Positions 7,268-58,600 of a DNA stretch of 64,000 nt are shown here, one piece after another. Source of the DNA: Rhizoclosmatium globosum. Lineage: Eukaryota > Chytridiomycota > Chytridiomycetes > Chytridiales > Chytriomycetaceae. The stretch's first letter is position 1. Every line of letters starts with the position of its first letter. The position numbers and the translations under genes were made by a program. Location: positions 186,001 to 250,000 of the forward strand of contig MCGO01000022.1 in NCBI GenBank assembly GCA_002104985.1. Reading direction: 5' to 3'. The notes beneath the pieces were generated by a model, which was not told the origin of the DNA, searched no databases, and saw only the letters and a program-made list of their open reading frames with translations.

Positions 7268-9738
7268 TTACTCCTTTGCTGGAGACTCGTCCCTCCTTTT
7301 CTTCAAAGCAGGCTCTTCGCCTTCCTCCTGTTGTTGCGCCTCGACTTCCTCAGCTGTAGCTTCCAACATCTCATCAACAGCTGCAAAAACGTGCTCATCT
7401 GCTTCTGCACCAACACCCAAATCGACTTCTCCAAATTCTCCACCATTCTGTTCGCCTCACCATCATGTTTTGGGGCAGGTAAGTTCAAGCCAGGGCGAGG
7501 TGGTAGACTTCCAAGCCCTTTTGTGGAGGAAGCGGCAGAAGCTGGTTCTGTGGCTGGCGCAGGTGTCGCCTCGGGTGGTGGTGCAACGTATGTGGTGATT
7601 TCAAAGGACGAGTTGATACGGTTTTGAAGTCCAATGTTCTCACTAAATGCAACAGTTTGTGGGTTTTGAAGCGGAAGTGCTGAGAAGAATAACAGTTAAG
7701 GGAGCGCTTCACGCGTTTTAATAGCGGAAACTTACCAAGTTGCATCCAGTTCTGTGGGCGATGTGCAGGAAGGTGTGGTGGGGCGACATGACAAAGTTGT
7801 TGGGAACAAGGAGACCACCTTCCTTGTTGCTCACATTTTGCTTCACCCATTCAAGTTCCGCCTTCACTTCTCTATAAAGTTCGATTAGTTAGAAGTCGCA
7901 ACAAGGGTTTTAAGCACGTACTCTTGCGCAGCTTCATAGAGGGGATAATTGATTTTGGGATTCACGTCAAAACTCATGTACTTGTCTGTAGCACGTACAA
8001 TTGCAAGCCATTCTTCGTCATATGAAATGTCAATGACACGCGGAACAGGTTTTTCATCACTGTTAGTCTCAGCTGCGGCGTCAACTTCGGTGGATTGAAC
8101 TTCTGGCTCCGCACCATCCTTCTCATCATTTGATTTTCCTTCTTCCGCAAGTGGAGTAATATTGAGAATCTGCAAGAAATCGCGACGTGGCATACACTTG
8201 TCCAAAGCCAAGAACTTGTGTATCGCGTGGGAACTGCTGGAGCTGCCGGAGTTGACGTTGTAACAGCTGAAGACGTTGCAGGTTCACTTCCTGGATTACG
8301 GTCCTCAACGAAAACCACATCCTCCTCCATCGCCTCTGCCGAAACTTCCTCCTTTGCTTCCTCCTCCTCATCATCGTCCCCAACCTCAATCACATCCGGA
8401 TTCTTCACCTCCACTTTCGCAGCCTCGCCAGCAGCAGCAGCGACACCTTCAGCGGCAGCACCCTTCGCTCCGTGAGGCACAAGCGCCGCAAATTTGACAT
8501 GCAAGTGAGCACTAAACCAGAACCGAGGCTTCAACAAATGCAACAGCCGCTCCGAAACTTCACTCCCAAGCGTATTCGTCACAATTTCATGCTCAAAGAA
8601 CGACTTTTGTCGAAGAAGCGCGCGCGTGTCGCCGTAGTGGTAGATTCCACGTGGCCATCGTGTGATACAAAAATGTCTAGTGGACGCGTGATTTGAGAGA
8701 GACGGAATTCAGTGTATGCGCGAATGTGGTAGATGGAGCGTTGGTGGTCGCGACTGTATGGGAGAACTTCATGGAATCCTGTCGTATATGTTTAGTGATG
8801 GGTTCATGGAATAGGGTGTTGTCACTTCCGCGCTGTGCTCTCAGTTTCATGAGTTTTGCTTGACATTCAATTCTTTCGCTACATTTCGCTAAACTTCGTT
8901 CGCTTTCGCTCACGTATCCCTTAGTTCCTCCTGACGACACACCGAGCTCCGCTCGTGCACTCGCTACGCGAAATATCACAGTTCGTGAGTCAGCTCGAAG
9001 ATATTTTACCTTTCCGATAATCCCTTGCGTCAAAAATACCAGTCATGCCACCAATCCGGAGACCACCGACATTCAAAACACCCGCAAAGCCCATAAAATA
9101 AATATTGGGAGCAACCCAACCACCATGATACAATTCCCATAAGTAATTAGAGCCTTCATGGTTCCCACCAATAAAGATAGTCAAGATGGGAGCTGTCTTT
9201 TTCCCAGAATAGTATTCATGAAAGTTTCCTAGTTTTTTGTGTTTGTCGGGAACGGCCATTTGTTCGAGGTCTCCGTGGTTTCTGATACTCTGTTTGATTG
9301 ATGGAAAGAGTGAGCTTTGTGTTTGATGAAGTTTGGAAAGGAGGAGACAGAGCCAAGCTCTGACAGAAGCAAACGCATAATAAAAGAGAGTATTATTCCA
9401 TAATAAATCCATTCTGAAATCTTGAATGCCTGGGTGGAATGTGTTCAAGTTTGGTTCTCCAAAACCGTAGTTTGCTCAGTTCATCCGTTGGGATTCAAAG
9501 ATTGCATTCATTCCACCGAGATTTCCTGTTCAATCCGGGCTCAAGAAAAGCGAACGCACCTGAAAGTCACCGCAGATGATGAGCAGGTCGACCTTCCAGC
9601 CCTCCTTGTCCTCAACCTGTTTGATTGACTGGTAGATCTTATCGAGCTCGCCTAGGAGCAGGCCAGTTAGTTAATTCAGTTTATAGATAGAGAGAAGTAA
9701 CAAGTACCATGGCAGCATCCCTCGATGGCAACACGCAT
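7268..9738 (-). CDS. DBR1: Lariat RNA debranching enzyme
   Basis: A metallophosphoesterase that opens the 2'-5' bond of excised intron lariats in the nucleus. Visible in order: VAIEGCCHG at the start (ATG 9738), [99 protein letters not shown] (needs one missing base at about 8652), [32 protein letters not shown] and [13 protein letters not shown]. Metal ligands of the family (Cys/His, Asp, Asn-His, His-x-His) are present. An acidic insertion of about 70 residues sits between HVKFAA and KFLALDKC, and the C-terminal tail is Glu-rich, ending RRDESPAKE. Further frame breaks lie at about 8229 and 7450. Intron 8779-9009 holds a decayed copy of the dispersed repeat. Confidence 0.93.
8779..9009 (-). 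repeat. Decayed copy of the intronic GCGA-rich repeat (in DBR1)
   Basis: This 231-bp intron interrupts DYRK-G in DBR1, in phase 1 (AAAG|GA). Read on the gene's strand it contains GCGTAGCGAGTGCACGAGC (8972-8943 region) and runs of AGCGAA/GAACGA, the same words as the other repeat copies at 10551, 25069 and 56586. The rest has diverged. Orientation is sense to the host gene. Confidence 0.55.
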
Positions 9739-9944: not shown

Positions 9945-12704
9945 ATGGACTTCGACGACCGCGCCGCCGATCTCGCCTGGAATTCAACTTCAGCTTCGAC
10001 TTCGACTTCGGCGGCGGCAAAGCGCGAACGACTCGAAACGTTGAAAAATGCGGCAACGTGTTTTGCCCAGTTTGAAGTACCTTTGCTTTCGTTGTTGCGA
10101 AGAGTATGTATTCTAGAGCTAAGTAGCAACCACGATAGGAGGCTTCGCGGGCCCTCGATAGACTCGATGGCGCTCATCTGTGGCAGGAAGATCCGGTCCA
10201 TCCCAGCTACGACTACAAACTACTCCAGGAACGACTCAAACAACTCAAATGGCTGGCAAAAGACGCGAACCCGGACCCGCAAGCTCTCTCTTACCTTCTT
10301 CGTTCAACTCTTTCGCGAAACTTGGGTGACATGGGTTCGCCCTGTCTCTATTCTCATGCTCGTATTGGGACAAAACAGCTGGTTCATGAGTACATTGATC
10401 AAGTCTGCTCGCAGCTCGACTTTCTTGCCGATTCCGACTTTGGAGATGCTTTTACTATTCATGATAAAATGTCCTTCTTTCGGAATGTCCAGCGTTCATT
10501 TGGTTCCACGGCTCTTCTCTTGAGTGGCGGTGCTACTTTTGGTACGATACCTACGAGTGAGACTATGACTGAGTGACCTACGAGCGAGACCATGACTGAG
10601 CGAGGAACGAGCGAAGGAATGTCGAACGGGCGAATCGCGAACGAACGAAAAACCGACTGACGTCGAGGAACGAGACGGAAAGAGGTTTGAGTTCGCGTGG
10701 AAACAGGCGAGAAGGGGGGAATAGCGAGCGCAGCGAGCAAAGAATTCCGACAAAGTCGGTACGTACAAAAGCGAGCCGACTCGCCGCAGGCGAGACGAGC
10801 TTTTGAAACTGTGAGCGCCAGCGAACGACCTTGCGCGCTTCAAATTACGGTGAGAAGGGAGGAACACAAAGCGAGCCGACTCGCCGTAGGCGAGACGAGC
10901 TTTTGAAACTGTGAGCGCCAGCGAACGATTTTTCGCGAAGCGAATTGCGTAGCGAGGGCACGAGCAGAGCTTGATTCCATCAGGCAAAGCGGATGAAAGT
11001 GTGAGTGCAGCGAACGACCTTGTGTGCGTTGTAATACAGAGAATAGAAGCAAAGAGATTACAATCTCTACTTGCACACGCGTCAACGGTGAATATTTAAT
11101 CAATTGGAAACCGCAACAGGTATGATACACGTCGGTGTTCTCAAAGCCTTACACGAGGCGAATGCACTCCCGAAAGTAATCAGCGGCTCGTCTGCTGGAT
11201 CAATTGTCGCTGCTATTCTCTGTACCCAAGAGAGCGACAATTTTGAAGCTGCCATTGACCCACATATGACGAACCGAGAGTTTTATGAAGATAGTTCGGA
11301 AGTTGGGAATATTTTCCCAAAGCTGTATAGATTCATGAACCATGGTTTGTTGTATTTGTGATTTTCCTCATGTGGCCTCATTATTTTTTACCGCTAGGAT
11401 GCGTTTTCGATGTTGAGGCGTTCATCAAAGCTGCAAGAGCGAATCTGGGTGGTGACATCACTTTCCAAGAAGCCTACAACAAGTCACGAAGAATTTTGAA
11501 TATTGCTGTGAGTAGCTCGACGCGGTTTGAAATGCCACGATTGCTGAATTATCTTACGGCTCCGAATGTGGTGAGTCTCTCCCAATGACGGTTTTTGGCG
11601 AATGTTCTGACTAAAGAGCTTGAAATAGGTAGTATGGTCTGCAGTGTGAGCATTGATTATTACTCCATGGCTCCAAATCTTACTCAAAATAGTGCGGCAT
11701 CATGCGCTCTGCCATTGATTTATCGGTCCGCACCGTTGATGTACAAAAATAGCAAAGGAGTTCTGGAATCATGGAACCCATCAGGTTTAAACAGATATCC
11801 CCACAAATACAGACAACTAATGTTATATTAAAATGCAGGACACCGATGGATCGATGGAAGTGTGGAAGGGTAAAGGCCCTTTGTTTAACATCAAGTTTAT
11901 TGACGTAAACACAGAGATCTCCCCATGACACGTATCAGTGAATTGTTCGATGTGAATCACTTCATTGTTTGTCAAGTGAATCCGCATATTATGCCATTCC
12001 TCAGCAACAGTCTTAAAGAATCATGGCTTGTACGAGCAGCCAACAACCTTGCCTACTTGATTAAATCAGAAACACTGCACCGATTAAACCAGGTGAGAGA
12101 AATACCGAGGTTTAAAATCTTGTTTATTTAATTGCTTGACCCCAGTTGTACGAAATTGGAATAGTCAGCCGACAACTTCACCGTCTCAAATCAATTCTCG
12201 TTCAAAAATACAGTGGAGACATCACAATTGTTCCAAACATGGTTCCATCAGACTACTTACATATTATCACGAACCCAAGCAATGAGTTGACGGAGTATCT
12301 TACACTGAAAGGAGAACGTGCTACATGGCCCAGTTGAGTTTCATATCGCGTCTTTTGCAGACCCACTGACTGAAAACCCCACAGAAATACCCCTCATACA
12401 AAACCATGTGCGAATTGAAATGTGTATCGACCAAGCTTTACTTCGTCTCCGAGCTCGACATATTCAAAAGATACCTGCATCCAGTCTTTCGACAGCAATT
12501 AAGAGCGAGGAAGCGCTATCTACTGCTGACGAGGCCTCAGAAGATAGCGGTGATTGTGGTGCAGGTGGAGCAAGACGAAAAGGTTCCGGACCATTCTTTG
12601 GGAAAAAACATGGTAGTGTGGACGCATTGAGTGGATTAGGAATCAGTGTTGCGCAAGAAGAGAGGCGGAGGAGAAGTTTGTTGAGGACAGAAAGTCTTCT
12701 TTAG
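9945..12704 (+). CDS. Patatin-type triacylglycerol lipase (TGL3/4/5-like, DUF3336)
   Basis: A lipid-droplet acylhydrolase. The N-terminus from ATG 9945 is Ser/Thr/Ala-rich. An exon from 10139 carries the DUF3336 region (YDYKLLQERLKQLKWLA, LGDMGSPCLYSHARIGTKQL). The patatin domain begins at LLSGGATFG|MIHVGVLKAL and has the nucleophile elbow GSSAG (about 11184-11198) and the partner Asp in HRWIDGSVEGDLPM. The C-terminal half continues through FIVCQVNPHIMPF and IVPNMVPSDYLHII to an Arg/Ser-rich tail. The intron after ATFG is 578 bp (10542-11119) and is filled by the dispersed GCGA-rich repeat. Other introns are short, for example 10077-10138. No frame break is needed in the core. Confidence 0.88.
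10551..11030 (+). mobile_element. Introner-like GCGA-rich repeat, copy 1 (two internal units)
   Basis: It lies inside the 10542-11119 intron of the lipase gene. It starts CTACGAGTGAGACTATGACT and ends near GCAGCGAACGACCTTG. It contains two direct units, 10768-10828 and 10868-10928, nearly identical and 100 bp apart, each with the hairpin CTCGCC-GCA(or GTA)-GGCGAG. Large parts match copies at 25069 and 56586, for example the CGTCGAGGAACGAGAC and GTTTGAGTTCGCGTGG stretches. The intron's two exon-side junctions are G|GTACGATAC and CAG|GTATGATAC, resembling a target-site duplication. Confidence 0.75.
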
Positions 12705-24440: not shown

Positions 24441-26512
24441 ATGGAAGCCGAAGAAGAGCGACTCTTTGGCGACTCCAACGCCGCATTTGCCGTTGCGCGA
24501 CTCGCGGCCTCGCTCGTTTCGACGCCGGTTGAACTCGTGGCCACGTTGCGAACCGTCGAATTCTGTCCAACAAAAGACTTTCTGTTTGCCGCGTCGTCGA
24601 TGGCGTCTTCTTCTTCGTCAAAAGAAACAGCAAATGACTCAGAGGAAGAAGAAGAAGGAGAGAAGAAGAGCAGGACGAACACGAACAAGACAACGATGAT
24701 GTGCGATCCCCGTCCTGTTTGCATCTGTCGATCAATGAACTAACTCAATCAATTCACTCCCTCAATCAGGACTTCTCAGACGGCGACACAGAAGTCGCTC
24801 CAGATGCATTCGACTTCCAATCAACAAATCAGAAGCCAAATGCTTTCACGGACTCGGACCTCGAATCCCTCAACGATGCCACTACTCTCTTGAAAAATAC
24901 CGACTCGATGGGCTACTTAATTCGCTCAGGATTGAATGATGACGATCAGGACCCTACTCGCCCTCCCTTTGAGATATCCGTCCAAGGCCTTTCTACTTTT
25001 CAGGCTATTTCAAAGGTTGTCAAGTGTGAATCGGAGGGTGTCTGGAGTCTTTGGAATGGTACGGTGGCCTACGAGTGAGACCATGACTGAGTGAGGAAGG
25101 AGACCTACGAGTGAGATCATGACTGAGCGAGGGACGAGCGAAGAAATGTCGAACGGGCGAATCGCGAACGAACGAAAAACCGACTGACGTCGAGGAACGA
25201 GACGGAAAGAGGTTTGAGTTCGCGTGGGAACAGGCGAGAAGCGGGAGAATAGTGAGCGCAGCGGGCAAAGAATTTCGACAATGTCGATACGTACAAAAGC
25301 GAGCCGAGTCGCCGCAGGCGAGACGAGCTTTTGGAACTGTGAGCGCCAGCGAACGACCTTGCTCGAAGCGAACTGCGTAGTGGGTGCACGAGCGTAGCTC
25401 TGTACCTTCAGGCAGAGCTGATGAAAGTGTGAGTGCAGCGAACAACTTTTCGAGTAGCGTTCCATAAGTGCCCGAGCGGAACTCGATATCATCAAGCAGA
25501 GACATTCACACATATTCTAACCCATCAAACATAAAAACAAACAGGACTCTTTATATCATGGTTTCATGAAATGACACATTTACTACTCATCCAACCATCC
25601 ATTGAACAATCCCTCAACGACGCATTTGATATTCGAGATGATACTATCCCCACATTGTATTTAGACAGCCCCATCCCAACTCTTGCAACTCTCATTGGAT
25701 CCCACGCTCTCTCCGGGATCCTCTTGTCTCCTATGGAGCTTGTACGAACTCGGTAAGTTTCTTGCCCGACCGCAATTTGTAATATCACCACTAAAGACCA
25801 AGAACAGTATCCTCGTCCAAACTTCATCTCCATACCACAGAAAATACACATCCTCATTAACAGCGCTCCCCCAAATCATCCGCGAAGAAGGCTTCGGATC
25901 CTTATACTGGTCCCGCCGCCTTCCCGCCACAATCCTCCTCAAAACTCTACAACCGCTCTTCAAATACGGTCCCCGCTCTTTATCCAGCGCATCGTCGGTG
26001 TTGACCCGGAGATGCAACCTGTCCTGTACCAAATGACTGAACTCGCCATGAACCTGATTGAGCTGTTTATCGTCATGCCTGTAGAGACTGTTGTCCGGCG
26101 GTTGGAGTGTCAAGTTGTTGGGCGGTTTGTTGCTGGTGACGTGAGTGAAGGAGAGGAGGATGGGGATGAGAGGAATAGGCTTAGTGTGAGAGGGAAAGGC
26201 GGGCCGTTCCAAGGAATGGTACGGGTGAATGCGATTCCGTATACCGGGTTCTGGAACTGTATTTCACGTGTGATTCGGGAGGAAGGGTATAACGGGATGG
26301 GTGTTGTTGCGAAAGAGGATGAGTCTGGTGGGAAAGGACGAAGAAGGAGGAGTGAAAGTAAGGGTGGCAAGAGCAGCAGTGGTGAAAAGAAAAAGAAGAG
26401 GAGCAAGGCTGGGGGTTGGTTTTCCCCATTAGGTGGATTATACCGTGGGTTGAAGTTGCGCATGTATGTGAATGTTACTGTTGCCGTGCTCAGGGCATTG
26501 TCATCGGATTAG
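24441..26512 (+). CDS. Ugo1/SLC25A46-like mitochondrial carrier, copy B
   Basis: ATG 24441. The N-terminal repeat has AVARLAASLVSTPVELVATL, followed by an acidic Glu/Asp-rich linker (frame break near 24664 in AAGAAGAG). Then AISKVVKCESEGVWSLWNG up to a 486-bp intron (25059-25544), and after it LFISWFHEMTHLLLIQP, GILLSPMELVRTR (intron) ILVQT, YTSSLTALPQIIREEGFGSL and FIVMPVETVVRRLECQ. The layout equals copy A: P-x-E-L-V-[KR]-T-R then LPQIxREEGFG. The last part is Lys/Arg/Ser-rich before GGLYRGLKLRM. The large intron contains repeat copy 2. Copy C follows in tandem about 100 bp downstream. Confidence 0.72.
25069..25502 (+). mobile_element. Introner-like GCGA-rich repeat, copy 2 (one internal unit)
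   Basis: It fills most of intron 25059-25544 of the Ugo1-like B gene, which splits a Gly codon in phase 1 (AATG|GA). It begins CTACGAGTGAGACCATGACT like copies 1 and 3 and shares long stretches with copy 1 (GTCGAACGGGCGAATCGCGA region, about 25147; ACGTCGAGGAACGAGACGGA, about 25187). It has only one of the two hairpin units present in copy 1, as if one was lost by recombination between direct repeats. Sense orientation to the gene. Confidence 0.75.
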
Positions 26513-47164: not shown

Positions 47165-50100
47165 ATGAGCGTACCTTCATCTGCTTTGATGCAAGATGGC
47201 GCAAAGGCGTATTTCGAGCGAAAAGATATCAGTTTGATTATGGAGGTATAACGAAATAGTTCGGCGAACCTGTCTAACAAATCAAAGAGTATTATGACTG
47301 GACTGGTTTATGAACAACCAGATGATCCACTCAGTTATATTGAAGATTGTGTCAAGCGGCTCAAAACGTCGGCTACACCATCAACCAACAAACCAAAACG
47401 AGTCCATTGGGACACATTTATCCCGAAAGAGGACCAAGAGAATAACGAAAAACGTAAGCAACGCGCCCTGAGGCTTGCAACAAACGCGAAGATTGTCGAT
47501 GCCCCAAAACCATCTAGTGGGAAAGTTATGCTCCCTCCGGTTAGCCGGACACCTGTCATTGGCCATCCCAACATCATCTTCGTTCTAGGGTGATTTATTT
47601 TCAAATAAGTTTAAACGTCCTGACACGCTTTGCAGGGGGCCAGGTTCGGGGAAAGGAACACAATGTGAACGCCTGGCGAAGGAATTTAACCTCACGCATT
47701 TGTCGACCGGGGATCTGCTCAGAGCCGAGCTAGAGAAAGGCTCTGATATTGGAAAGAAATGCGGTGACTTGATGAAGGAGGGAAAGATTGTACCGATGGT
47801 AAGAACCTGTTATATTACTTTTGAGTTTATAATTCTGAAACCAGGCAATTATTCTTGGTTTACTCAAAGCTGCTATTAATCAAAACTTTGACACTCCTGG
47901 ATTCCTGATTGGTTCGTTGCTTTCATACGCATGATTCTTGGTCAGTATGTTATAAGTGATGGATATTAGATGGATTTCCTCGAGCAATGGACCAGGCCCA
48001 AGAATTTGAAGCAACTATCGGGAAATGCAAGACTGTTCTTTGCTTCACGTGTCCTCTCAAAGTTCTTGAAGCCCGTCTCCTTGAACGCGGAAAAACGTCT
48101 GGTCGTGCTGACGATAACATCGACACCATTAAGAAGAGATTTAAAACATTTGAAGAACAAAGTATGCCCGTCATTGAGTTTTACCGCAAAGACGGTCGCG
48201 CGATCTTGGTTGACAGCACAGCTCCTATTGACAAGGTGTATCAAACAACTCGTCAGTATATCGTTGATATGAACTTGGGTAAAGCTGGAGCATTGCCACC
48301 AATTTCAAAGTCGAGACCAGTGTCTAACGCTGGATCTACCCCAGCTACAAGTTCTGCTGTCAGAGGAAAGGCGTGGAATAACATCGTCTTTGTCTTAGGG
48401 TAAATAGTTTGGCTCTTTTTTGAAATCGAAGGCTAAAATTAAATTCAGTGGCCCTGGATGTGGAAAGGTACTCAGTGTGAGCGCATTGCAAAGGAATTCA
48501 AATACAATCATCTGTCTGCTGGCGATCTGCTTCGTGCTGAGGTGGCGACAGGATCAGCCAGAGCCAAAGAGCTGGATTCCATTATGAAAGAGGGGAAAAT
48601 TGTTCCTATGGAAGTTACCTTGGTTTACTGAAGGAAGCCATGGAAAAATGTGGTGACGCTGCTGGCTTCCTGATTGATGGGTTTCCTCGCGCATTAGATC
48701 AAGCCCTCGCTTTGAGGATACCATTGCCAAGTGTAAATTTGTTTTGATGTTCGACGCTCCAGAGTCTGTCTTGGAGCAACGACTTCTGAAACGGGGAGAA
48801 ACAGTGGAAGGCCGACGACAACATTGAAACCATCAAGAACGGTTCAAGACATTCATCGAGACTAGTATGCCTGTTATCAACCACTTTGATAAACTTGGAA
48901 AATGTGTCAAGATTTCATCCATTGTCCATCCTGATGAAGTGTAAAGAATACAAGAGCTCACTTCATCGAGAAAACCCCTAACATAATTATGGTGTTAGGA
49001 GGACCTGGTTCCGGGAAAAGGAACTCAATGTGTGAGGTTGGCGAAAGAATTCAACTTGACACATTTGTCCACTGGTGACTTGCTTCGAAATGAAGTGGAG
49101 AAAGGGACACAGATAGGAAAAGACTGCGCAGAATTAATGAAGGAAGGCAAAATCGTACCAATGGTAATTGATTCTTTTCGTTTTTACGATACTAATTATT
49201 GTTCAGGCCATAATCTTGGGACTTCTCAAAGCAGCTATCGATAACAACTCAAACTCTCCAGGATTCTTGATAGATGGTTTTCCACGCGCGATGGATCAAG
49301 CCATTGAGTTTGAGAAGACCATTTGTCCAGCTTCAAAAGTGTTGTTTTTTAACTGTCCTCTTGATATCCTTGAAGCGCGTTTGCTAGAACGAGGAAAACG
49401 TCTGGTCGAGCGGACGACAACATTGATACCATTAGAAAACGATTCAAAACTTTCCAAGAGGAGAGCATGCCTGTAGTGGGGCACTTTGGTGACAAGGTCT
49501 TGCGGATTGAAAGCACAGGTCCAATCGATCAAGTTTATGACAAAGTGCGCAATTCGTTGGTTTCAGAAGGTATTTTGAAACCAGTTCCCAACATTATCTT
49601 CGTGCTGGGCGGTCCTGGATCAGGAAAGGGAACTCAATGTGTCCGGCTTGCGGAAGAGTTCAAACTTACACACTTGTCGACGGGAGATCTTCTCCGCGCA
49701 GAGCTTGAAAAAGGTTCAGAGATTGGAAAGAAGTGTGGAGACCTAATGAAGGAGGGTAAAATTGTGCCCATGGAAATTATTCTTGGACTTTTGAAAACGG
49801 TCATTTCGGACCACATGGAAACGCCTGGGTTCCTTATTGACGGCTTTCCCCGCGCCATGGATCAAGCGATCGAATTCGAGAAAACAATCTTTCCAGCCAA
49901 GAAAGTGCTATTCTTTACTTGCCCCCTTGAAACGCTCGAAAAAAGGTTAATTGAACGTGGCAAAACATCTGGTCGCGCGGATGACAATATTGACACAATT
50001 CGTAAACGGTTTAAAACCTTCCAGGAGGAGAGTTTACCAGTGGTTGGGCACTTTGGTTCTCGAGTTTTACAAATTGAAAGTACTGGAACCGTCGATCAAG

Positions 50101-53100
50101 TGTATGCTGATGTGAAGAGTAGATTAATTTCGGAAAAGATCGTTAAGCCCATTCCGAATATTATTTTTGTACTTGGTGGACCGGGTTCAGGCAAAGGAAC
50201 TCAATGTGTTCGGCTTGCAAAGGAATTCAGACTCACTCATTTGTCCACTGGAGATTTGCTGAGAGCGGAACTTGAGAAGGGTTCTGACATCGGAAAGAAA
50301 TGCGGCGACCTAATGAAGGAAGGAAAGATCGTTCCGATGAGCATCATTCTTGGACTCTTGAAAGCCGCGATAAACAACAGCCCAGAAAACACTCCAGGTT
50401 TCTTGATTGATGGTTTCCCGCGTGCTATGGATCAAGCAATCGAGTTCGAAAAAACTATTTTCCCTGCCAAGAAAGTCCTTTTCTTCAACTGCCCCCTTGA
50501 TACTTTAGAAGCCAGACTCCTTGAGCGAGGGAAAACGTCGGGACGTGCTGATGATAACATCGACACAATTAGAAAGCGATTCAAGACGTTTCAAGAGGAA
50601 AGTTTGCCTGTAGTAGGGCATTTTGGCTCTCGTGTGCTTAAAATTGAGAGTACAGGGACTGTGGATGAGGTGTATACAACTTTAAAAAATGGTCTCTTAT
50701 CTGAAGAAATCGTTAAACCGGTACCAAACATTATTTTCGTACTCGGTGGGCCTGGTTCTGGTAAAGGAACTCAGTGCGTCAGATTAGCCAAAGAATACCA
50801 GCTGACACATTTGTCAACTGGAGATCTACTGCGTGCTGAGTTAGAGAAAGGTTCCGAAATCGGAAAGAAATGCGGGGACTTAATGAAGGAGGGAAAGATC
50901 GTGCCTATGAGTATTATCTTGGGGTTGTTGAAGGCTGCTATTGACAACAGTCCTACAAGTACGCCAGGGTTTTTGATTGATGGATTCCCGCGAGCGATGG
51001 ACCAGGCTGTCGAATTTGAAAACACTATCTGTCCTGCTAAGAAAGTTCTTTTCTTCAACTGTCCTCTTGAAACCCTGGAAGCCAGACTGCTTGAACGTGG
51101 GAAGACATCGGGACGTGCCGACGATAATATCGATACGATCCGTAAACGATTTAAAACGTTTCAGGAAGAAAGTTTACCAGTGGTTGGACACTTTGGCTCT
51201 CGGGTTCTTAAAATCGAAAGTACTGGAACTGTGGATCAAGTATACGCTGATTTGAAGAGAGGCTTGCTTGCAGAAGACATTATCAAACCTGTTCCAAATA
51301 TTATTTTCGTCCTTGGTGGACCGGGTTCAGGCAAAGGAACTCAATGTGTTCGACTTGCAAAGGAATTCAGACTCACTCATTTGTCCACTGGAGACTTGCT
51401 GAGAGCTGAACTTGAGAAGGGTTCTGACATCGGAAAGAAATGCGGCGACCTAATGAAGGAAGGAAAGATCGTTCCAATGAGTATCATTCTTGGACTCTTG
51501 AAAGCTGCTATAAGCAACAGCCCCGAAAACACTCCCGGTTTTTTAATCGACGGATTTCCTCGTGCCATGGATCAGGCAATTGAGTTCGAAAAAACTATTT
51601 TCCCTGCCAAGAAGGTGCTGTTCTTCAACTGCCCTCTCGACACTTTGGAAGCTAGACTTCTGGAACGTGGAAAAACGTCAGGTCGAGCTGATGATAACAT
51701 CGACACAATTAGAAAGCGATTCAAGACGTTTCAAGAAGAGAGTCTGCCTGTAGTCGGACACTTTGGCTCGCGAGTGTTGAAAATTGAGAGTACAGGAACA
51801 GTTGATCAGGTGTACGCAGACTTGAAGCAAGGCTTGCTCACCGAAAATGTCATCAGACCAGATCCTAACATTATTTTCGTACTTGGCGGACCAGGTTCTG
51901 GTAAAGGAACTCAATGTGTACGATTGGCGAAAGAATTCAGACTTACGCATTTATCAACTGGTGATCTTCTCCGTGCAGAGCTTGAGAAAGGCTCAGAAAT
52001 TGGCAAAAAATGTGGAGATTTGATGAAGGAAGGTAAAATAGTGCCAATGGAAATCATTTTAGGGCTTCTCAAGGCTTCTATTCTGAGTAACTTGGACACG
52101 CCTGGATTCCTTATCGATGGGTTCCCTCGTGCAATGAACCAAGCTATTGAATTCGAAAAATCAATTTTTCCAGCCAAGAAAGTCTTGTTCTTCAACTGTC
52201 CCTTAGATACTCTCGAAGCAAGACTTCTGGAACGGGGAAAGACTTCCGGACGTGCCGATGACAATATTGACACAATCAGAAAGAGATTCAAAACGTTTCA
52301 AGAAGAGAGTTTACCAGTTGTTGGGCATTTTGGCTCCAGGGTGTTGAAAATCGAGAGCACTGGAACAGTGGACGAAGTTTATGCAGAGACTAAACGATAT
52401 TTAATCAGTGATGGAACTCTTCGTCCAGATCCAAACCTGATTTTTGTGCTCGGTGGGCCTGGGTCAGGCAAAGGCACGCAATGTGTCCGACTTGCCAAAG
52501 AATTCCACTTGACTCATCTTTCAACGGGCGATCTTCTTCGAGCCGAGTTGGAGAAGGGTTCTGAAATCGGAAAGAAATGTGGAGACTTGATGAAAGAAGG
52601 CAAATTGTTCCAATGAGCATTATCTTGGGGCTATTGAAAACAGCAATTTATCACAACCTCAGCACACCTGGATTTTTGATTGATGGATTCCCACGAGCTC
52701 GTGATCAAGCGCTGGAGTTTGAGAAAACGATTTGCCCAGCAAAGAAGGTTCTCTTTTTCAATTGTCCTTTGCCAGTTCTGGAGGCTAGATTGTTGGAACG
52801 TGGCAAGACGTCAGGTCGTGCTGATGATAACATTGACACTATTCGCAAGCGATTTAAAACCTTTGAAGAAGAAAGTATGCCTGTTGTTAGTCTGTTCGAA
52901 GACCGAGTGATGAGAATTGAAAGTACTGGAACTGTGGATGAAGTGTACGAAACTGTGAAGAATGGATTGTTGGCTGAGAATATCATCAAAACTCTACCTT
53001 TTGAAGGTTCAAATATTGTCTTTGTTCTTGGAGGACCAGGAAGTGGAAAGGGTGAGTGGCATAATTTTCAACTCTCCTTCATTATTAAACTCTAATCCTG

Positions 53101-53692
53101 TAAATGCTATCATCAAAGGTACACAATGCGACAAACTCGTAGAAAACCTCAAATACGCCCATTTGTCAACAGGAGACTTGTTGAGAGACGAGGTCAAACG
53201 CGGAACAGAACTTGGAACCCAATTGGAGGAGATAATGCGTGAAGGAAAAATGGTTCCCCTTGAAATCACTCTAAGGCTCCTGGTTGAAGCTATGCAAACA
53301 GCTAAAGAAACAGCGCCAGGATACTTGATTGATGGATTCCCTAGAACGATGGAGCAGGCTATTGAGGTAACCTTGAACTCTGAGTTTGGGAATATCGCAC
53401 TCTAAACACATTATCGCAGTTTGAAAACACAATCGGACACTGCAAATTTGTCTTGTTCTTTGACGCTCCAAATGAGGTTCTTACCCAACGATTGCTCAAG
53501 CGAGGTGAAACAAGTGGCCGCGCCGATGATAACCTCGAAAGTATCAAGAAACGATTGGATACATTTGCGAATGCGTCGATGCCTGTTGTCAATTACTTTG
53601 AATTGAGCGGTCGTGTTAAACGAGTGTTGGCTGATGGCGCACTTGACGACATTTTCGCCACCACCTTGAAGTGCTTCGAGGAGTTGCAGTGA
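47165..53692 (+). CDS. Giant multi-domain adenylate kinase, about ten AK domains, AK5-like N-terminus
   Basis: Adenylate kinase interconverts ATP + AMP and 2 ADP. ATG 47165 starts a segment with KAYFERKDISLIME-SIMTGLVYEQPDDPLSYIED and later RVHWDTF, like the N-terminus of animal AK5 (RIIa/Dpy-30-like docking helix pair and VKWDTF). Ten AK domains follow, starting near 47566, 48379, 48977, 49590, 50157, 50727, 51297, 51867, 52434 and 53012. Each has GGPGSGKGTQC (P-loop), LSTGDLLRAE, KEGKIVPM, GFLIDGFPRAMDQA and LLERGKTSGRADDN (lid Arg, Asp). Domains 4-9 are nearly identical and intronless; 1, 2, 3 and 10 carry introns and differ more. Total about 2,000 residues. Frame breaks cluster at 48460-49400 and 52605. 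Confidence 0.88.
49590..53011 (+). repeat. Tandem array of six near-identical adenylate kinase units
   Basis: The Asn codon that opens each unit (N-I-I-F-V-L) lies at 49590, 50157, 50727, 51297, 51867 and 52434: spacing 567, 570, 570, 570, 567 bp (189-190 codons), the last unit ending at 53011. Protein sequence is almost constant while many codons differ at third positions. Units 5 (50157) and 7 (51297) share a nearly identical first half (about 300 bp), more alike than either is to its neighbour unit 6. Confidence 0.88.
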
Positions 53693-55630: not shown

Positions 55631-58600
55631 ATGCATCGATATCATCAGGCCAACATGGAGACATCGTCGTCCACGCCATCCTCTGAATTCGAGATTGAAG
55701 AGTATGGCGGCGAACAAGAAGAGGAAGAAGAGGAAGAAGAAGAGGAGGAGGAAGCGAGCAGCAGCGACGGATCCAATTCAAGTTCAGACCGTGACACCGA
55801 CACCAACTTGAACGCAGCAAATGAAGCCCGCCACTTCTCGCGCAAACGACGGCGCAGCGTCCAACCACCACCACGAACTACTTTGAGTGGGTACATTCGG
55901 CGGCAGATTGGCGATGTTTCCGTGGCGTCAACTAAACAAACAACAACGTCGTGGCCTGGGCTCGAGGCCGCCGACTTTGCTTCGTCGTCGCTTTCTTTCT
56001 CAACGGCGGCGTCAACGGCGACTGCGAAGCCCGCATCGCTCTCGCTCGAACACGTGCCGACAACCCGCATCTCGCGTGCCCCTGCTTCAACTTCGATTCC
56101 ACTCAATCTCAACGTTGTCTCCTCAGACTGGAGCATCAATTCAGAGAAGTCTTTTGCCGGTCTAGGAACTCGTCAAACTCGTGGATTCGTGAAACTGTGC
56201 CTTCTGTGCCAAATCATCGCCACACTTCAACTTCCACAACCTCAATCGCAAATGAGGCTGCTCTCCTTGACCGCATCGCAAAACTCATTCCTTCGCACTT
56301 CACTCTCGATCTCTACTCTCGCAAAGACAACCATGACATGTTGGCCCTCTCTGATTCCGCCACCCGTGCCACCTATATTGGACCTGGTCACTCTGATAGA
56401 GACTCTGCCTCTGTTCGTTCAAATCTACCCATCCCACGTACTCTCTCTGATGGTGTCTACCTGAAAATATTTTATTTTGAAGTCCTTGTCGTTTCTGAGG
56501 GTAAAGATGGTTGGATGGGTATTGGTTGTTGTACAAAGGATGTGAATCTTGATCGACTGCCTGGTAATGAATTATTTCTAGTCATCTACGAGTGAGGCCA
56601 TGACTGAGTGACCACGAGGAACCATGGCTGAGCGAAACGAGCGAAGGAGTCGAACGTGCGAACGAAAACTGACTGATGTCGAGGAACGAGACTGGAAGGA
56701 GTTTGAGTTCGCGTGGAAACAGGCTGGAGAAGTGGGGGAACCGTGAGGCAGCGAGCAAAGATTTCCGACACAAGTGGTACGTACAAAAGCGAGCCGACTC
56801 GCCGCAGGAGAGACCAGCTTTTCAAATTATAAACACCACCGAACTATGTTTCGCGCTTCAAATTACGGTGAAAGGAGGTGGAATAAAAAGTGAGCCGAAC
56901 GATCGTTTGGAACTGTGAGCGCCAGCGAAAAATCTTCGCAAAGCGAATTGCGTAGCGAGTGCACGAACATAGCATTGTACCTTCAGGCAAAACTGATGAA
57001 AGTTCAAGCGCAGCAAGCAACCTTGTGTGCGTGTGTATGTAGCGTAAAATGAACGCAGCAAGTTGGTTTTGCGAGAGAACGAGTGAAACTCAGTCTCGTA
57101 AGGATGGAACTTCGGCGAATGGAGAAGAGAACGTTGCGCGATATATTATACACCTATCATATGAAACTAACATAACTTCAACAGGTTGGGATCCTGGATC
57201 GTATGGATACCATGGTGACGATGGATTCTTGTTTGAGTCAACTGGAAAAGGAAAACCTTACGGCCCCACCTACACCAAAGGAGACACAATCGGCTGCATT
57301 GTGAATTTTATGGACAATACAATGTCATTTACGAAGAATGGGATACTGATTGGTGTCGCGTTTCGGGATCTGAAGCCTGACGTGCCGTTATACCCAACAG
57401 TTGGGTTCAGGACACATGGAGAGTCGATGCAAATCAACTTTGGAGAAACTCTTTTCAAGTTTGATATTGAGGGATATATATTGGTAGGGCTGTTTTCTAA
57501 CCTTCCACCAATTAAACATTGAACTTGCAGGAACAACAGTCCAAAATATGGAAAACCGTTTCCACAACGACCATACCCCTCCCTCCTTCCTCTTTATCTT
57601 CGTCAATCCCTGCAAATACCCCTGACGCATTCATTCAAGCATCACATAAACTTCGCCAAGATCGATTCTCTGAATGTCCTTCGCTTTTACTTCATTCACT
57701 TGTTTTGGATCACTCGAGCATATTGGATATCATGAAACTGCTGCCGCTTTTCGAGCAAATGCTGTTGGTTTTGATATCGAAGATGGCGTTAAATTGGAGT
57801 CAACACAACTGCGTAATGGTATACATTCACAAAATTCAATATCAGATCCTATGGATGTGGACAACGAGGATGGCTCTCTGAGAATTCGAAAGAGTGAGTA
57901 ACCGTGACTGACAGCGATTGCCTTTTTTGACAGAATTTAACAGAATTACGGTCCAAAATTATGATGGGTGACGTTGAGTCCGCCATATCCGATTTAAAAT
58001 CACACTTCCCAGTTTTTTTACAACGAACCGCCACGTTTATTTTGCGCTGCTCTGTAGGCAATTTGTGGAAGCACTGTTGTTGAGCCTGAAGGGTATCCAG
58101 CCACCTGAAGGTGGATCTGGGAAGACTGTTTGATTCTGCACGGTCGTCGGCTTTCGACTGAGTTTGCAACAGAGGCAGAAAGAAACAGTTCCATCAATGC
58201 GACATTACTGGAAACGTTTAGTCTCGCGGCATATCCTGCGGATGTTTTAATTGCCGCGCTGCAGCAGCAACAGCACCAATCAACCAAAAAAGTGGGACGT
58301 GCATCATCTCCGCGAAAGGCATCCATGGGTTCCTCGCATAGTCTCGGTAGTCGGGGTTCAGTTGACAGTTTCAAGTCCGCTGGAAGTGGAGGGCTAGTGC
58401 AAGAGAAAAAGCTGTAATTCCATACTCTGTTTTGAGACTATTGGATACTTCTGCTCGGGATCGCGTCGCTGCGTTGGTCGATAGTGTGTTCTATTAGAGT
58501 TGGGCAAGTTAACCGAGTCTGTACTGGAGAGAGAACTGAAACAATGTGTGCTACAAAGTAAGATGCTAGGAGAGTATGGCGGGCGTGTGCTGGGTATTGA

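Follow-up and report, generated by a model that had tools for sequence, protein, structure and literature searches.

Surveys of introners infer the birth of introns from sequence that introns have in common. In the parts of the surveys drawn on here, introners and introner-like elements appear as dispersed similar introns in unrelated genes, and the ascomycete families among them carry neither target-site duplications (TSDs) nor terminal inverted repeats (TIRs) (PMC9860276, PMC4457414). Many introner families, though not every one, do have TSDs or TIRs. The published screen, as the corresponding sections set it out, requires similarity near both splice sites, by which most secondary insertions and microsatellites are to be excluded, and low-complexity families are dropped by hand; the main text of this survey gives pezizomycotina (ascomycetes) as the fungal group and does not contain the word "chytrid" (PMC9860276). 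Secondary transposon insertion or microsatellite growth, the cases that the screen is meant to leave out, enlarges an existing intron that keeps the splice sites of its host and may grow in tandem. A further related system are the [D1,2] stwintrons of Hypoxylaceae, many similar copies of which are reported to have entered fungal spliceosomal introns directly at the donor or close to it; the inserted sequence is a complete intron that splits the donor.

Here we describe a GCGA-rich repeat family in the introns of Rhizoclosmatium globosum, a chytrid fungus of the order Chytridiales that stands outside the fungal group named in the main text of the introner survey (PMC9860276). A literature search, which extended mostly to titles and the openings of abstracts and to parts of PMC9860276, PMC4457414 and PMC8476143, returned no description of this family or of introners in Rhizoclosmatium. 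Introners are the closest known kind, and the chytrid family resembles them in its genic location and sense bias, and the ascomycete families also in the lack of TSDs and TIRs. It differs from the introners described there in that the similarity between copies ends before the 3' splice site, that length and module number vary widely, and that some of the host introns seem to predate the repeat. Because the similarity near the 3' splice site that the screen demands is missing, we do not class the family as introners. Unlike the stwintron insert, the chytrid insert begins after the donor; from secondary insertion, which it would otherwise resemble in the traits named above, the family is set apart by a so far exceptionless sense bias, by its absence from the intergenic DNA read and by its anchoring behind the donor, none of which would be expected from random insertion.

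Four copies lie in the window, by which we mean the whole 64-kb stretch of DNA that was analysed, out of an assembly of 56.9 Mb in 420 contigs. The features are as follows:

8779..9009, minus strand: W4, 231-nt intron, phase 1, in a gene that we take to be DBR1; placed by the joined reading frame
8839..9003, minus strand: repeat copy of W4, diverged, in sense to DBR1
10542..11119, plus strand: W1, phase-1 intron of 578 nt, host a patatin-like phospholipase gene; exact GT..AG borders by splice model
10551..11048, plus strand: repeat of W1, beginning with CTACGAGTGAG at a distance of 9 nt from the 5' splice site; composed of A, B and a tandem C module with a 100-bp unit
11049..11119, plus strand: 3' tail of W1, unshared with other copies; includes the 3' splice site and a motif resembling a branch point
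25059..25544, plus strand: W2, 486-nt intron, phase 1, in a presumably mitochondrial-carrier-like gene
25069..25501, plus strand: repeat of W2, with 92% identity to W1 across 298 nt; followed by an unshared tail at 25502-25544
56564..57184, plus strand: W3, phase-1 intron of 621 nt in a gene with a SPRY domain; borders by splice model, SPRY match across the junction
56586..57091, plus strand: repeat of W3, beginning 22 nt behind the donor; followed by an unshared tail at 57092-57184

A splice-chain model that employs local codon use and no intron-length penalty returned W1, W2 and W3 exactly and unprompted, with the borders that a preliminary description of the window had assigned to them. The same description had these three introns filled by one GCGA-rich repeat with long common blocks, and this is what we find: W1 and W2 share a block that is 96% identical over 144 nt, and all three are mutually 90-98% identical over 60 nt. 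The DBR1 intron is absent from the output of this model, and two length-penalised splice models returned none of the four window introns, which is expected since such models favour short introns. The DBR1 intron is similar to eight other family introns, in agreement with the decayed fourth copy that had been suspected there. The joined protein of W1 matches Patatin (PF01734) across the junction; Pfam gave nothing in the 99-aa DBR1 segment, and we assign this host on the naming in the preliminary description together with a protein motif. It is probably the lariat-debranching enzyme DBR1, itself part of intron turnover. A scan for further copies in the 64-kb window found none, as had been described, and all four copies are in sense orientation, in phase 1 and within a split Gly codon. 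As a rule for the family, however, the phase and the Gly split had to be abandoned: the phases 0/1/2 are distributed 11/10/3 over 24 loci, and the exon junction reads G|G in 9 of the 24.

DNA and pattern searches of the genome located the family at no fewer than, that is at least, 94 separate places. The core pattern gave 63 forward and 34 reverse matches versus 3 and 0 for a reversed control, an excess that shows the repeat not to be a product of chance; a 20-base exact repeat pattern was absent from the viral and prokaryote contigs of collections that hold no fungi. We judged 35 of the 94 places plus the DBR1 copy, the loci being chosen by similarity rank or 5' motif with five lower-ranked ones added (L058-L062), so that weaker family members are under-sampled. 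Both haplotypes seem to be partly present in the assembly: nine locus groups agree at 92-98% identity in roughly 4 kb of flanking sequence, and each such allele set was counted once. Merging the sampled copies by allele and adding one further copy beside L046 yields 26 independent loci. In 25 of them the repeat lies inside an intron and in sense to the gene, for which random orientation would give a chance of 2^-25 (3e-8); in the remaining locus, L062, the scored 78 nt upstream could be read through on either strand, and a second exon was not seen. Antisense or intergenic placement was shown in none of the 26, and a scan of 244,520 bases, comprising the window and the fetched loci with their alleles, detected no repeat copy that lies outside an intron; the fetched stretches had been selected for holding a copy. 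Every above-threshold match in these bases belongs to a modelled intron, to its alleles, or to the second L046 copy with its alleles, and the placement reported for the window in the preliminary description recurs in the genome-wide sample.

GT..AG borders were set and the joined protein was read for 24 loci; for the second copy at L046, the verdict rests on the reading frames on its two sides. Coding scores favour the strand of the model in 23 of the 24; the exception, L051, is explained by a short second exon and by the next intron, which spoils the score. The least certain models are L038, L041b, L051 and L061. For the nitrilase host (C146), the NCBI gene model of R. globosum joins exactly at the modelled junction with 100% identity over 178 residues, and nine out of ten joined segments found a Pfam match, most of them across the junction, the DBR1 segment being the one without. 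The hosts further include MCM, an SNU114-like GTPase, a DEAD-box helicase, cytochrome c1, a Cdc20-type WD40 protein, a PP2A-type phosphatase, a P4-type ATPase, an aminotransferase, and C2H2 and MPN-domain proteins, where the finer names are presumptive. The 24 modelled introns with the repeat are similar introns in unrelated genes, which is a sign by which introners are recognised.

By eye, the family is built of modules in the order A, B and C, with module A missing from some copies. Module A consists of repeats of a 36-bp unit (CTACGAGTGAG...), B measures about 100 nt, and C, which is also repeated, measures about 100-118 nt. The start of the element, set by motif, lies 6-46 nt after the donor (median 10) in the 17 loci where it is recognisable, and in 15 of these it lies within 6-16 nt. 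Random placement in the residual intron would bring 4.7 starts within 16 nt versus the 15 observed, a value reached in 0 of 200,000 simulations. In the remaining 7 of the 24 models, which allow no start to be set, the first similarity to another intron appears 4-82 nt after the donor. Towards the acceptor, a tail of 20-149 nt (median 57.5) separates the end of the repeat from the 3' splice site, and this 3' tail has no significant match to other introns in 24 of 24 cases: tail similarity amounts to 7.48 versus 6.94 in shuffled tails, and positions 21-65 score 12.09. Even in copies that are 92-97% alike, both the first ~9 nt and the 3' tail are unshared. Since the repeat ends before an unshared tail, the copies have neither splice site in common; similarity close to the 5' splice site is present in 15 of the 17 loci with a recognisable start, and close to the 3' splice site it is lacking. 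As separate observations, the C389 copies (the tail of L037 and the introns of L041, L041b and L043) have in common an extra 3' module with ATTGTGTCATGCAA, which in L037 faces TGACACAAT as a 9-bp inverted repeat, and L058 (C389:179200-180700) is a gene that we assume to be of SEL1 type, the 923-nt intron of which is a regular array of ~118-bp units.

What is left of the intron at both ends of the repeat has a median length of 74 nt (17 loci). Introns predicted in this DNA by length-penalised runs have a mode of 50-60 nt and medians of 61 and 71 nt; the same gene model without the length penalty gives a median of 347 nt, for which reason our notion of a normal intron length rests on the penalised runs and on the gaps in paralogs. 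Intron length varies between alleles, with 1222 versus 522 nt for L037/L040, 401 versus 532 nt for L034/L017 and 557 versus 627 nt for L041/L042. All nine allelic groups as well as the SNU114 pair carry the repeat, the alleles having been fetched for the repeat in a way that repeat-free ones would escape. For the second haplotype of the W1 gene, the search gave no second match and hence no allelic empty site.

Whether the host introns are older than the repeat can be approached through paralogs in the same genome, whose introns we judged from exon-by-exon match coordinates, computing the lengths from them; a site is good to about 3 residues, and the arithmetic returns the known 335 nt for L060. 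At the site of the 672-nt intron of L047, the aminotransferase paralogs C122 and C401 (possibly alleles), which are 78-80% identical after the junction, imply an intron of 55 nt. At the site of the 335-nt intron of L060, the PP2A-type paralogs C211, C107, C42 and C1, which are 45-53% identical and some of which are possibly alleles, imply 53-58 nt, whereas the closest paralogs C181 and C346 (69-70% identical) are unbroken through the site. A Cdc20-type paralog implies 47-50 nt in the interval that holds the site of L030. From these coordinates, the introns of L047 and L060 look older than the repeat, and the gap in the L030 paralog is compatible with an older intron at the site. No break at the site of the repeat-bearing intron is seen in the patatin paralogs of W1 (six matches, one with an internal stop), in the P4-ATPase paralogs, in the EF2-type paralogs of SNU114 or in the closest DEAD-box paralogs, beside which a weak pair on C37 implies ~54 nt with one half at E 3.7. 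The host introns of these four families could therefore be young, and the four sites appear either not decisive or leaning against older introns. Ordinary introns at the same sites in orthologs of relatives, the outcome that the preliminary description had named as refuting its reading, were looked for in the paralogs, with a mixed result: among seven host families an intron is implied in two (for PP2A in the more distant paralogs only), compatible in one and missing in four.

When 27 introns (24 loci and three alleles) were compared all against all, non-allelic introns matched each other 2389 times on the plus strand and 0 times on the minus strand, and this lack of minus-strand similarity between the 27 introns leaves no sign of terminal inverted repeats. 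A target-site duplication is hinted at by W1, where the first 9 bases of the intron (GTACGATAC, 10542-10550) and those of the next exon (GTATGATAC, 11120-11128) agree in 8 of 9 positions; over 24 loci, the donor side gives no excess of such agreement (permutation p 0.67-0.85), and the candidate was dropped. Copies on the same contig are more alike than others (permutation p 5e-5), with a mean best score of 177 for 17 same-contig pairs versus 73 for all pairs. Each of the seven best pairs lies within a single contig, C135 or C389, its members ~2 to 72 kb apart. This higher similarity suggests local copying of DNA.

The explanation we prefer, and which we consider somewhat more probable than not, is that a non-autonomous modular repeat is a sense-locked passenger that is written into existing introns behind the donor and spreads locally, with selection adding to the bias. 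The family, with its ordered modules A-B-C and tandem growth of A and C, would live inside spliceosomal introns, and each new copy would enter an intron that is already there, a short way downstream of its donor. As the similarity by contig suggests, copying may be local and at the DNA level, from a nearby repeat-bearing intron via template switching or ectopic conversion; the enlarged intron would then be removed by the spliceosome. Selection would reinforce the sense bias, the reverse strand being rich in 3'-splice-site-like sequence. One may ask whether selection alone would suffice, if an ordinary non-autonomous transposon or minisatellite were scattered randomly and only its sense intronic copies survived, since a copy in antisense would introduce cryptic 3' splice sites and one in an exon would break the gene. 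The strand asymmetry of splice-like motifs is indeed strong: 3'-splice-like sites number 8.45 per kb in antisense versus 1.61 in sense, and GTRAG 0.38 versus 9.97. With such a richness in acceptor-like sequence, reversed copies would probably disturb splicing, and the differing array length between alleles is what unstable tandem repeats would show. A disturbance of splicing can explain the absent antisense copies but not the absent intergenic ones, which should be tolerable and yet do not occur among the 26 loci or in the 244,520 bases (stretches chosen for holding a copy); survival alone also leaves the clustering 6-16 nt after the donor unexplained, and neither minus-strand matches nor target duplications were found. 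We thus regard random scatter as quite unlikely and, as selection accounts for neither the missing intergenic copies nor the proximity to the donor, prefer copying close to the donor, followed by selection as an additional filter.

The introner reading of the preliminary description, by which the element creates the intron when it inserts, survives insofar as one dispersed family occupies sense introns in 25 of 26 loci. In the form weighed here, the element entered exons and brought or recruited both splice sites, its 3' tails having drifted later and its arrays having been homogenised by conversion. The distribution in sense introns argues for it, as do the introns missing in the paralogs of four out of seven hosts and in the closest PP2A paralogs, and the W1 match of 8 of 9 bases is what a target duplication would leave. 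The part in which the insertion itself creates the intron is not supported: the splice sites and the 3' part are unshared even among copies 92-97% alike, the duplication signal is missing over 24 loci, the paralogs of two hosts imply short introns at the matching position, and the relevant section of the published screen demands similarity close to both splice sites (PMC9860276). On balance, we judge intron creation by the element unlikely, though at some sites it may have happened. We consider it very improbable that the repeat acts as a functional RNA within the intron, for instance by a fold that draws the donor near the branch point or by regulating splicing. The exclusive sense orientation and the repeated donor-like GTGAG units near the real donor would suit such a role, but the RNA fold gives no signal (mean z -0.40 in sense and +0.45 in antisense) and the donor-to-branch path shows no compaction (22 versus 21 for shuffled sequences, with a shorter path in 13 of 24), introns above 520 nt having been cut to 500 in both calculations; moreover, Rfam returned nothing at the gathering score for the window, L037, L038 and L058, and array lengths vary between alleles. 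Returning to the preferred sense-locked passenger, a further proposal, possible though doubtful, is that the mobile repeat uses the 5' splice site as a landing pad and is copied, at the DNA or RNA level, into introns already present, directly after the donor and in the transcribed direction only, introns being its habitat and not its product.

The chytrid family displays the introner sign together with a sense bias, yet for at least some of its introns the repeat appears to be the younger part, which makes it a warning case for surveys; sense-locked intron families may also arise by such a second route. The anchoring of the repeat behind the donor raises the question of whether splice-site recognition or the transcription of the intron guides where the repeat lands; if the donor is the guide, this mobile sequence would follow a new principle of targeting.

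The window also holds, on the plus strand at 47637-53365, up to 10 units of a domain that we take to be adenylate/UMP-CMP-kinase-like, spaced ~570 bp apart in the regular part, and this repeat region contains one open reading frame of 1049 aa at 49467-52616.
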